64,000 nt of DNA from Candidatus Ruthia magnifica str. Cm (Calyptogena magnifica) (lineage in GTDB: Bacteria > Pseudomonadota > Gammaproteobacteria > PS1 > Pseudothioglobaceae): NCBI RefSeq assembly GCF_000015105.1, contig NC_008610.1, forward strand, positions 186,001 to 250,000, given 5' to 3'. Position numbers and translations under genes: made by a program. Below the pieces are notes generated by a model. That model made no database searches. It saw only the letters and a list, made by a program, of their open reading frames with translations, and was not told the origin of the DNA. Shown one piece after another: positions 47,845 to 64,000 of the stretch (its first letter is position 1; each line of letters opens with the position of its first letter).

Positions 47845-48462
47845 ATGCAAAGAGGAAAATTTATCACTATTGATGGCGTTGAGGGTTCTGGGAAAAGTAC
47901 GCAAATTGATTTTATTTGTGACTATTTAGTCACAAAAAAAATTAATGTTATTTTAACACGTGAACCAGGCGGTACTGAGTTAGGTGAAAAAATCAGGACA
48001 TTATTACTAAGCACTGACATCCAATCAATACATGGTGATACTGAGTTATTATTATTGTTTGCTGCTAGAAATGAGCATATTAGGACTAAAATTATACCAT
48101 CACTTGAGAAAGGTGATTGGGTATTAAGTGATCGTTTTACGGATGCTTCATATGCCTATCAAGGTGGCGGTAGGGGGTTGAGTATTGAGCGTATCACACA
48201 GTTGGAAAAATGGGTGCTGCAAGATTTTACCCCGGATGTGACTTTACTATTAGATGTATCAGTTGCACTAGGCATGTCACGTGTTGAATCTAGAGGCCGC
48301 AAGGATAGAATTGAACTTGAAACAAATGACTTTTTTAAGCGTGTTAGAAATAGTTATATTGAAAGGTCTAAGCAATTTCCAAAGCGAATTAAGCTCATTG
48401 ACGCTTCAAAAACACTCGAACAGACCGCACAACAAATAAAAATAATTTTACAAGTATTATGA
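47845..48462 (+). CDS. tmk: Thymidylate kinase
   Basis: Phosphorylates dTMP to dTDP. The 205 residues contain the P-loop GVEGSGKST (11-19), TREPGGTELGEKIR and the LID/DR motif DRFTDASYAYQGGGR. AAGAGGAAA is close to the start codon. Its stop overlaps the holB start by four bases. Confidence 0.96.
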   Translation: MQRGKFITIDGVEGSGKSTQIDFICDYLVTKKINVILTREPGGTELGEKIRTLLLSTDIQSIHGDTELLLLFAARNEHIRTKIIPSLEKGDWVLSDRFTDASYAYQGGGRGLSIERITQLEKWVLQDFTPDVTLLLDVSVALGMSRVESRGRKDRIELETNDFFKRVRNSYIERSKQFPKRIKLIDASKTLEQTAQQIKIILQVL

Positions 48463-57069: not shown

Positions 57070-57385
57070 ATGGATAAAGGTGAGATACTATTTATCAAAA
57101 ACTGTTTAAGTTGTCATGGTAATAACTTGTTGGTTAAAATATTTAACTCAAAACCTAGTGATTTAAGAGCTATGTCTTGTATGCATTTAAATTGGGGGTG
57201 TTACTTGAAAAATAACTAATGTATAACACTATTTCGGTTTGGAAAGGCATTCTTAAAGAGGTGAATATATGATATCTTGTGAATTATATTCAATTTTTAA
57301 ATGCTGATATGTTAAATAGAGAACACTCTAATATGCAAGGCATGAATCATACGGGTATGCAAATCAAAGATAAATACTAATGGAA
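57070..57385 (+). pseudogene. Remnant of a c-type cytochrome
   Basis: The plus strand reads MDKGEILFIKNCLSCHGNNL, a haem motif CLSCH in the usual GxxLFxxxCxxCHG setting. Later pieces in other frames are ISVWKGILKEVNI and NYIQFLNADMLNREHS, as at the C-terminus of a class I cytochrome, and a Met-rich end (MQGMNHTGMQIKDK). Frames are broken several times. The Met/His-rich tail and the multicopper-oxidase remnant that follows suggest a metal-related operon. Confidence 0.65.
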
Positions 57386-60651: not shown

Positions 60652-61728
60652 ATATAATCATTTTCTTTTTAAAGTAATGTTTTGTGACTGATTTTCAAAA
60701 AAATCAGAATCAAAAATTTTATGCTTTAGTTTTTATAAAAATTTTTGTGTATCCCAAATAAGTAAGAATAAACGATAATTTTTGTTCAATATTCATCAGC
60801 CAATAAATTCAAAAGGTTGGTTTGGTTTCACGTTTTGTGATTAGTAATTTTTCAACCATGTCAATTGGTAGATCAGGATTGATCATTGTAGTATGCCTAA
60901 TTTTTACCCAATATTTAATTTGATTGGACACTATTCTTAATTCTTTTTTGGTCTGAATTTTGGCTCGATTGTATAAATTTTTATTGATTCTGGTTTATAT
61001 TACTTGTCGCTTGGTTAATAATATAAATTTATTTTATTAGAATTGTAATAAGTTACCACACAATATATAACTATCCATTTAAACATGGTATGAATATTAA
61101 ACCACTAATCACTAATGGCATAATTGATAAAATTTATAACGAGCTGATTGGTCAGTTAGTTAAGTAAACCCATCTTGTTGCTACACTTAATCAGTCTAGG
61201 TCAATGGTTGATACTTTATTTGAAATGTTTTTTAAAAGATAGTTTGGATATGAGTGATGCTGATTGAATATTGATTTTGTGAAAGTTCCAGCCAAGTAAG
61301 ATAAACCGGTATTTTAATTGCTTATAACTGACACCATGATTAAAACTGCAAAACTATTGAGCAAAGAAGTTAACAATAAGAGCATTGTTTAATTTAGGTG
61401 TGACTTTTAAGTGCGATATTTATATTGTCATGAATGGGTAAGTGTTTAGTTTTGATAGGGTAGAGAAAAATAAAGAACTGGATATTTTTATATCCTTATA
61501 GTTCTTTGAGTGGGTTTAGTAGATTTTATTTTGTCATATGTTCAATAGCTTCTTTTAGTTGATCATCTGAACAAATCATATAGATACCTTTCGGTGACAT
61601 TTACGCTGTCACTTTGACTAGTAGATATATAATGCCGCGTTTAATCCATTAAACTTAGGCGCGTTAGTAACGCCAATACTATGCCAATTAGCGTATACAG
61701 AAATATAAACTCCCTTCGCCATTGCGAG
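60652..61728. other. Decayed spacer with unassigned remnants
   Basis: Nearly 1.1 kb of broken sequence. Plus-strand pieces near 61080-61440 read MNIKPLITNGIIDKIYNELI, LFNLGVTFKCDIYIVMNG and others. On the minus strand, 61530-61760 reads VNVIKLLKNLAMAKGVYISV, YANWHSIGVTNAPKFNGLNA and SPKGIYMICSDDQLKEAIEH before a stop. No family was recognised. A weak hairpin (CTGATTT / AAATCAG) lies at 60688-60707. Confidence 0.45.
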
Positions 61729-61852
61729 ATTTTTTAGCAACTTAATGACGTTAACTCTGTTGATATTTCAATACTTGAGGATAGAATTAGACCACTAGAT
61801 CAAGTATATTTGAAAGGTGGTTGATGTTAACGTCATTAAGTTGCTAAAAAAT
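61729..61852. repeat. 27-bp perfect inverted repeat with partly paired 70-base interior
   Basis: Arms 61729-61755 and 61826-61852 are exact reverse complements over 27 bases. Inside, TTTCAATACTTGA on the left has a near match in reverse complement on the right, so the pairing continues imperfectly. Both arms can be read as the same protein fragment (VNVIKLLKN) in opposite directions, so this looks like an inverted partial duplication of a former gene, or a large palindrome. It is far longer than chance would give. Confidence 0.85.
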
Positions 61853-62040
61853 GTATCAACGCCAAATAATAATAAAAATAGTAATAATAGCCGCCAGTGA
61901 ATTTTTCAAGTACATAGTATTTTTTCTTGTTTTTTAACATAGCCTTGTGCCAATATCGATAGATAACCCGTTCATAAAAATAAGTTATAATTCTAGAGAA
62001 GGGAAGTATTACACTAACAAGTCAATAATAAGTATCAAAA
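61853..62040. other. Spacer before yhdP
   Basis: A/T-rich. TATAAT at 61986-61991 lies 50 bases before the yhdP ATG and could be a -10 box, but no -35 is evident. Confidence 0.4.
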
Positions 62041-64000
62041 ATGATTAAAAAAAAACGCTTAAGTGGTATTAAAGTATTAAAAATAAGCACTTGGGTTAGT
62101 GTTATTTTTACGTTCATTTTTGTATTAGTAGTGTTATTTTTTGTCATCTTTCCAATGTTACTAAAAGTACCGATTGAGACTCAATTATCAAGTTTAACTG
62201 GGCTTGATGTTCAGTTGTCTAAAATTACATTTGATTTTGAAAAGAAAGGTATTACTTTAAAAGTGCATGATATTTCCATCGCATCTGGTGAAGCTCAGCA
62301 AATGGCCATGATTAAAAATTTATCTTGGCATATTAATCTGCTAAGTTTGTTTGATGATATTTATCATTCTAGTCAAATTTTTATTGATACTCTAGTGCTT
62401 TATTCTAATCTTGATGATTTCAGTATAGACGACATTAGAAATATAGCCTCACTTGGTATGCTAAAAGAACTATATTTTTTTGAATCTCTGCATATTAATA
62501 AAACAATTATTAAAGATACAGTTGAAATTGCATCATTGACGCTTAAAAGAGATGGGATGCAATTGTTGTTAACAATACCTAATCAGAGTATTGGCACTAA
62601 ACACCTTGACATTACGATTATCTTATCTAGTGCCAAGATTAATCAAAATGGCTTTTTAACGTTACCAATTACTTTGAGTGGTGATGATTTTGAGTTGTTG
62701 TCAAGTCTTAAAATATATAGCTATCAAGGTTATGATTTTATCCAATTTAGTGGCCTTATTCAGCGTATGAATGTGATTAATATTAGTGATTATTTACCTA
62801 TGGTATTGATAGGTGATATAAATCATCAATGGATTAAGCATGCATTTCAATCAGGTGAATTGGATAATATTAATATCAGCATTAAGAAAAATCTTTCAAC
62901 GCAATTACCAGCAAAGATAAAATTTGATGCGCACTTAAGCAATACTGAATTATTATTCAATACTGATTGGCAAAGTCTTAAGCAATTAGATGCAAATATT
63001 GCCATTGATGGTAGAAAAATCACAGTTATGGTCAATCATACTATGTTAAACGACATGTTTTTGCAAGGTATGAAAGTTCAAATATTGGACATGAGCAAAG
63101 ATAAATTAGAGATTAGCGTCGTTGGTAAAATTAATACTCAAAGTGAAATATTAACCCAATTTTTAAAAGATGCACCACTGAATGATAATGTAAATGATGT
63201 GCTTGGGAAATTTAGTCTATCTGGAAAGGTGGTAGGTAATGTAGATTTAATCATATCACTGGATGAAACAGAGCCGATATTGGATATTAATTTGAGCATT
63301 CAAGATAACCGTATGACAACATTGGGTGGCGCAATTGTGGTTAAGAACTATGATGCACAATTGACATTGCATAATAACAAAATTACTTCAAAGGGTGTGG
63401 GCAATATTCGGGGTGAGTCATTTAATATTCGCATCAATTCTAATAATCAAGATAGTGGTTTAGATGCATTATTTAAAGTAGGGCTTACTAACGGTAATAA
63501 TTTTGAGTTTTACTTGACTAAATATTTGGATCAAACATGGCAAGCAAATGTCAAGTCCGATACGTTAAAAACTGATGTAAAAATTATACTAAATGAGAAC
63601 GCTTTGCCTGAGGTAAAATTGATAAACCTTCAAGTAGAGGCGTTAGACAAAATAAAAGGCAATTGGGATATTCAGGCAAAAGATTTTCCCAGTATGCATT
63701 TAAGTGTACAAAACATACAAGTTGGTGAAAGTAAGTGGCCTGATTTTGAGGCCACACTTGGATCTCAGGACAAGGTGCTTAAAATCATTAATTTAGAATT
63801 TTTAGGCATAGGTGTGAATAGTCAAAACCTTAGTTTTGACGGTGCTTGGGTTGATGGTAGAACTATACTCACTGCTAAAGCAAAAGGTAGTAAGTTGAGT
63901 AAATTTCTTGATAAATTAAACATTAAAGAAAAAGTTCGTGGGGGTCAATTTGAATTTGATATACGCTTATTTTGTAATTGTGCTCCGTGGAATATGAGTT
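62041..64000 (+). CDS. yhdP: YhdP-family envelope protein (AsmA-like), C-terminus beyond the window
   Basis: About 653 residues are present and the frame is open to the edge. One N-terminal membrane helix (about 19-41, WVSVIFTFIFVLVVLFFVIF) anchors a long periplasmic beta-rich chain. IPMLLKVPIETQLSSLTGLD-type start with VDIxLSxI follows the AsmA/YhdP pattern, and the last visible residues, GGQFEFDIRLFCNCAPWNMS, match the YhdP motif of (F/L)xWPGAPWxF. In E. coli YhdP and TamB carry phospholipids to the outer membrane. The reading continues past the window, so length cannot be judged. Confidence 0.8.
   Translation, partial: MIKKKRLSGIKVLKISTWVSVIFTFIFVLVVLFFVIFPMLLKVPIETQLSSLTGLDVQLSKITFDFEKKGITLKVHDISIASGEAQQMAMIKNLSWHINLLSLFDDIYHSSQIFIDTLVLYSNLDDFSIDDIRNIASLGMLKELYFFESLHINKTIIKDTVEIASLTLKRDGMQLLLTIPNQSIGTKHLDITIILSSAKINQNGFLTLPITLSGDDFELLSSLKIYSYQGYDFIQFSGLIQRMNVINISDYLPMVLIGDINHQWIKHAFQSGELDNINISIKKNLSTQLPAKIKFDAHLSNTELLFNTDWQSLKQLDANIAIDGRKITVMVNHTMLNDMFLQGMKVQILDMSKDKLEISVVGKINTQSEILTQFLKDAPLNDNVNDVLGKFSLSGKVVGNVDLIISLDETEPILDINLSIQDNRMTTLGGAIVVKNYDAQLTLHNNKITSKGVGNIRGESFNIRINSNNQDSGLDALFKVGLTNGNNFEFYLTKYLDQTWQANVKSDTLKTDVKIILNENALPEVKLINLQVEALDKIKGNWDIQAKDFPSMHLSVQNIQVGESKWPDFEATLGSQDKVLKIINLEFLGIGVNSQNLSFDGAWVDGRTILTAKAKGSKLSKFLDKLNIKEKVRGGQFEFDIRLFCNCAPWNMS

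Follow-up and report, generated by a model that had tools for sequence, protein, structure and literature searches.

Introduction

Inversion of a spacer together with homogenisation of its arms has already been described as a product of template switching in yeast, and loop inversion has been described in rRNA; the palindrome reported here, from Candidatus Ruthia magnifica str. Cm (G000), is large for its type. In Saccharomyces cerevisiae both changes are attributed to intermolecular template switching in the available part of PMC8604942. The yeast cases share with ours identical arms, a reversed spacer and joints within short inverted repeats, but, as far as that part goes, their spacers are short (REG2: 16-bp arms, 5-bp spacer) and lie in coding sequence, whereas G000 has 27-bp arms around a long spacer of 70 nt in a dead bacterial gene. 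The rRNA hairpins in the accessible text of PMC8794818 include bacterial examples and are alike in that one event makes the stem and can invert the loop; the largest pattern there (no more than 59 bp) failed quality control, whereas 92-98 nt would have been copied in G000.

Quasipalindrome-associated template-switch mutagenesis in E. coli (PMC7202029, available in part) likewise has an imperfect inverted repeat as the switch site, but the G000 case belongs to an evolutionary time scale and its spacer is inverted too. An interrupted palindrome in E. coli without SbcCD and RecA gives an inverted rearrangement at the inverted repeat, and G000 is also without recA and without an SbcD match over the cut-off; the E. 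coli products, in the accessible portion of PMC3315005, are large chromosome duplications formed via hairpin ends, whereas about 95 nt would have been replaced in G000. Long perfect arms within genes are found in Nematomorpha mitochondrial genes, with template switching as one proposed origin (PMC6649704, available in part); there the genes are functional with many repeats, whereas G000 has one repeat in a dead gene. Searches of an open-licence literature set, judged by the titles and abstract openings of the papers listed and with subscription papers outside the set, showed no report of this locus.

Results

The window, the whole stretch of DNA that was analysed, comprises 64,000 bases (186001-250000) of a single-contig genome of 1,160,782 bases. 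The following features, in window positions, are used below.

61529..61915 (approximate), minus strand: dead cytochrome c gene with the palindrome inside; 11 stops in the stretch matched by the intact G006 protein
61729..61755, minus strand: donor arm, the ancestral flank on the downstream (C-terminal) side after a 13-nt deletion, putative template for the other arm; from in-place alignment with four relatives
61756..61825, plus strand: 70-nt spacer, in inverted orientation compared with its flanks; from the opposite-strand match to the gene sense of four relatives
61826..61852, minus strand: recipient arm, old upstream flank, probably replaced by a reverse-complement copy of the donor arm; from template-switch alignments with four relatives
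62041..64000, plus strand: yhdP, divergent, open frame of 824 aa that runs off the window; from protein-level matches

The palindrome is real and far beyond the expectation from shuffled DNA. The perfect 27-bp inverted repeat with a pairing interior, which the earlier note had described, was confirmed: the arm at 61729-61755 is the exact reverse complement of that at 61826-61852, the interior pairs imperfectly, and the DNA fold of the 152-nt stretch that holds them has z = -10.3, none of 200 shuffles being equally stable. The RNA fold lies 8.5 standard deviations below the shuffles. At spacers of up to 200 nt the next longest perfect stem of the window has 14; the longest in a 300-kb sample of G000 taken without the window is 23, and dinucleotide shuffles of that sample (5 per stretch) gave no perfect stem of at least 16.

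The location in a dead gene, also claimed before, was borne out, and the gene is a cytochrome c remnant. The intact G006 protein matches Cytochrome_CBB3 (PF13442, E 1.7e-15). With it as the query we detected a complete 145-residue cytochrome c in 3 of the 12 genus genomes (G006, G003, G011) and decayed pieces in four (G010, G002, G009, G000), with no match at E <= 0.001 in G001, G004, G005, G008 and G007. Alignment placed short remnants of the gene at the same position in G001, G004, G005 and G008; G007 stayed outside this alignment, as only 455 bases of its contig precede the yhdP match. G009 has lost the spacer. The first 283 residues of yhdP are present without internal stops in all 12 genomes.

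The neighbourhood contains further remnants. An asparaginase-like gene remnant (about 61081-61450, placed by eye) converges on the cytochrome remnant, and its hand-translated G006 counterpart matches PF00710 (E 8.3e-25). Between these two dead genes lies a hairpin (61472-61507, AAAGAACT...AGTTCTTT), at whose site G006 reads AAAGGGCT...AGCCCTTT; G006 differs in both arms, so the arms have changed together, though both adjoining genes are dead. At 57070-57219 lies another c-type cytochrome-like fragment; it contains a CLSCH motif and matches PF13442 weakly (E 0.0039, below cut-off).

Comparison with the relatives G006, G003, G011 and G010, the order used for all values below, revealed that the spacer is inverted. 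Their ancestral order is an upstream arm (ATTTTTTAGTCATTTAATTAAAGTTAAC or near), the spacer and a downstream arm (GTTAACGCCATTAAAGCACC...GTTGCTACAAAATCTCGC or near). Read on the strand opposite to its flanks, the G000 spacer matches them at 59/59/60/60 of 70 bases, against only 31/31/38/20 when read with the flanks and 46-51 for the best of 200 shuffles; BLAST of the stretch that includes the spacer against G006 gave E 2.6e-25. The flanks around the spacer retain the gene orientation.

Both arms are of the downstream type over CAACTTAATGACGTTAAC; the upstream-specific stretch is gone, and the downstream arm carries a 13-nt deletion. According to the template-switch alignments, the ATTTTTTAG/CTAAAAAAT end is the exception to the downstream type, and in the recipient arm about 61844-61852 (ATTTTTTAG) is still original. 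In the donor arm the one exception shared against all four relatives is a single base in CTAAAAAAT, with 1-3 further bases varying among the relatives: this right (downstream) arm reads CTAAAAAAT where the relatives read CTACAAAAT or CTACAAAAC, the exceptional position being CTAAAAAA in G000 and CTACAAAA in the relatives. The segment measures 150 nt in G000 and 165-168 nt in the four relatives. Because the new arm took the place of the old one, no sequence was gained; the inverted duplication proposed in the earlier note holds in that one arm is an inverted copy of the other, but not as an addition of sequence.

The palindrome is absent from the six nearer relatives aligned (G006, G003, G011, G010, G009, G002), three of which hold the intact gene; the comparison with related symbionts had been suggested together with the first description. 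The homologous stretch of G006 and G010 contains no inverted repeat of at least 12. Short matching sequences are seen at each of the two joints in the relatives, namely ATTTTTTAG/ATTTTGTAG at one joint and GTTAAC at the other (G011 has ATTAAC instead on one side). For an ancestor that was already an imperfect hairpin, as quasipalindrome correction would require, there are matching ends, but no repeat of at least 12 in G006 or G010 and no notable fold. The single-strand DNA fold of the intact gene has z -1.4 in G006 and -1.7 in G003, with 20 and 13 of 200 shuffles as stable; no strong pre-existing hairpin that could prime a switch is therefore seen, which leaves priming to the short matches alone.

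Scanning the window for micro-inversions relative to syntenic DNA returned the palindrome locus against G006 and G010, and nothing against G009, which has lost the spacer; the anchors covered 59,621, 35,007 and 19,681 of the 64,000 bases against G009, G006 and G010, respectively. Another candidate (47905-47946) proved false when read by eye, being a 10-bp palindrome.

Discussion

We suggest that one replication template switch most likely left the palindrome as its scar in a cytochrome c gene that was decaying and not under selection. This gene is dead, its spacer is inverted, its arms are of the downstream type, and short shared sequences stand at both joints. An earlier 13-nt deletion, and probably one C-to-A change, would precede the switch. 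The nascent strand would copy ...ATTTTTTAG in the upstream arm, leave it, and continue on the complementary strand, entering it where the downstream arm has the matching ATTTT.TAG. Backward copying would then run through the downstream arm and the entire spacer, 92-98 nt in total depending on the relative, until a return at the self-complementary GTTAAC, formerly present at both spacer ends, where synthesis would resume. The outcome would be an inverted spacer and an upstream arm that is the reverse-complement copy of the downstream arm. The alignments put the first joint after ATTTTTTAG (about 61844/61843) for three relatives, whereas for G010 it falls two bases earlier; the second joint lies around GTTAAC (61755-61748). 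The earlier note had named a strand event at a replication fork among its options, and strand switching survives from it, while the inversion of the spacer itself (59-60 of 70 bases on the opposite strand) had been missed.

Edit counts at unit costs favour this model. A colinear model needs 58/59/61/64 edits and an in-place inversion 33/35/33/38. A 13-nt deletion followed by inversion lowers the count to 22/25/25/27, and the deletion followed by a template switch to 18/20/18/23, a saving of 4, 5, 7 and 4 edits at two extra free breakpoints; the inversion breakpoints were scanned within limits, the best one for G003 sitting at the limit. When the deletion is left out and jumps are uncounted, two opposite-strand jumps leave 23/25/24/27 edits and two same-strand jumps 43/45/46/46. 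Among the four relatives a switch gave no net gain after the jump cost in 12 of 12 ordered pairs. An equal-length hand search for deletion plus switch was poor (29/none/30/35 mismatches) and was replaced by the full search. Given the assumed prior 13-nt deletion, a single event thus appears the most parsimonious; we infer that it was replicative and followed the deletion (probably also the C-to-A change). The CTAAAAAAT exception would call for one more substitution or a second correction.

The same structure could have arisen in two steps, by a reciprocal inversion over the short GTTAAC or a quasi-repeat and then by gene conversion or hairpin mismatch correction that equalised the arms. Deletion and inversion by themselves already bring the edits down to 22-27, and the CTAAAAAAT exception is compatible with a later correction. 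A reciprocal crossover, however, leaves one upstream-type arm whatever its position, while here both arms are downstream-type over CAACTTAATGACGTTAAC; since reciprocal inversion cannot give both arms one type, some non-reciprocal copying is needed, and a template switch would provide inversion and copying together. The two-step course also requires an extra event, and recA is gone from G000 (our own search and the available part of PMC3202245). We consider it unlikely.

Arms that differ at 0 of 27 positions beside a spacer that has diverged by 14-16% from the relatives call for an explanation: the event was recent, homogenisation was repeated, or an artefact is involved. A hairpin chimera in the sequenced library, from assembly or cloning, would explain perfectly identical arms within otherwise diverged DNA, and the palindrome is known here from one assembly. 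Against such a chimera, the divergence of the spacer from the relatives (10-11 of 70 bases) is comparable to that of its two flanks (5-11 of 68; 16-20 of 88), and on each side the spacer continues into colinear sequence, neither flank being duplicated. We regard an artefact as very improbable.

A role for the hairpin as a terminator, a cruciform or a regulatory element between the dead gene and yhdP would fit the very stable fold and the start of yhdP 189 bases past the last arm base. The palindrome, however, sits in a pseudogene and is missing from the six relatives named above, and its long stem is followed by no T run on either strand (GTATC on the plus strand, CTCGC on the minus strand). 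The terminator scan, limited to loops of 3-8 and therefore unable to reach the long stem, returned only a separate 5-bp hairpin (61715-61728). Rfam gave no family at gathering score, the top match being a microRNA model with 30.7 bits where 100 are needed. The terminator between converging remnants suggested in the earlier note finds no support, as the palindrome lies inside one remnant and upstream of the divergent yhdP. We infer a structure without function and regard any function as extremely improbable. A dispersed repeat or an insertion-sequence end is rejected, since a genome search for further copies, also proposed in the earlier note, gave none at E <= 0.01: its 241-base query matched only itself, its own two arms mutually and one 23-base stretch elsewhere.

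Returning to the template switch as the preferred origin, we looked at the remnants of the same cytochrome gene in other genomes. In the G008 remnant (L032:2546-2580) a perfect 15-bp repeat encloses a 5-nt loop, and in that of G005 (L031:1275-1316) a 19-nt repeat at 95% encloses a 4-nt loop; G006 and G010 gave none in this repeat search. This hairpin differs from the 27-bp palindrome of G000, and the YhdP tree groups G001, G004, G005 and G008 (100/100) apart from G000. A strong signal for a second switch against G006 (47 to 18 edits in G008, 46 to 18 in G005) was rejected, as it arose from charging a 30-nt length difference per base. One plain same-strand jump leaves 19-21 edits in G008 and 20-23 in G005 against the four relatives, and a switch leaves 16-19 in both at the cost of one jump more. 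With the deletion charged as one event, the switch gains 2-4 edits (G008, G005) or 1-3 (G001, G004) for one extra jump; at equal jump numbers it gains 1-2 in G008 and 2-3 in G005, and in G001 and G004 it equals two same-strand jumps or is one edit worse. The edit counts therefore barely prefer a second switch in the G008/G005 clade to a plain deletion, and we take it as a hint. Scored in this way, the G000 palindrome still favours a switch, which leaves 23-27 edits where two same-strand jumps leave 43-46.

Other long repeats were observed. In G001 (L131:14352-14458) a 27-bp perfect inverted repeat with a 53-nt spacer lies after rpsT, between what are presumably rpsT-like and Smr-like genes, and its left arm equals its right arm, unlike in three sisters. 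As a further switch it was rejected: the net gain is 0, -2 and -3 against G008, G005 and G004, and the spacer is not inverted. G009 (L114:3939-4138) has a 21-bp perfect inverted repeat with a 158-nt spacer, with matching opposite-strand pieces in G000, G011 and G007.

The repair gene content of the genus was compared as well. RecA reached the cut-off in 7 of the 12 genus genomes; the search gave no match in G001, G004, G005 and G008, and G000 retains a 36-position scrap of recA with 3 stops. The loss agrees with the available part of PMC3202245 for two species named there. On the tree the recA state needs two changes, of which well-supported branches alone force one. SbcD reached its cut-off in 0 of the 12 genus genomes (4 weak matches) and in 8 of 14 control genomes. 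For exonuclease VII the large subunit is at cut-off in 11 of 12 genomes, with no match in G008, and its gene looks broken in G009 (G009:C1:842520-843766); all 12 genomes have RecJ and ExoI family matches above cut-off.

A link of the palindrome to recA and SbcD is plausible, because E. coli without SbcCD and RecA forms large inverted duplications according to the available part of PMC3315005. Six genomes were sampled at 15 stretches of 20 kb each (300 kb per genome), and perfect inverted repeats with spacers of up to 200 were counted in them. Stems of at least 14 numbered 11, 11, 9, 17, 10 and 10 in G000, G006, G008, G010, G009 and G001 (shuffle means 0.0-1.8), and stems of at least 20 numbered 1, 0, 3, 1, 1 and 1. 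These 300-kb samples give no clear difference between the recA-less (G000, G008, G001) and the recA-bearing genomes, and we therefore claim no effect of recA. A broader proposal is that in clam symbionts without recA and with SbcD apparently missing, long (about 95-nt) strand-to-strand switches rewrite unconstrained DNA, dead genes decay partly by micro-inversion and palindrome growth, and the cytochrome remnant is a recurrent hot spot. It is improbable at present, with only one firm switch at the palindrome locus.

Taken together, the palindrome is real and most likely a non-functional scar of a known mutation process. Vesicomyid symbionts with and without recA are usable for a genome-scale test of whether RecA suppresses template switching, which the present small tests do not show. 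With intact relatives as the outgroup, the locus provides a clean polarised case in which one copying error can build a long perfect bacterial hairpin, and such a hairpin does not have to serve a function in a reduced genome.
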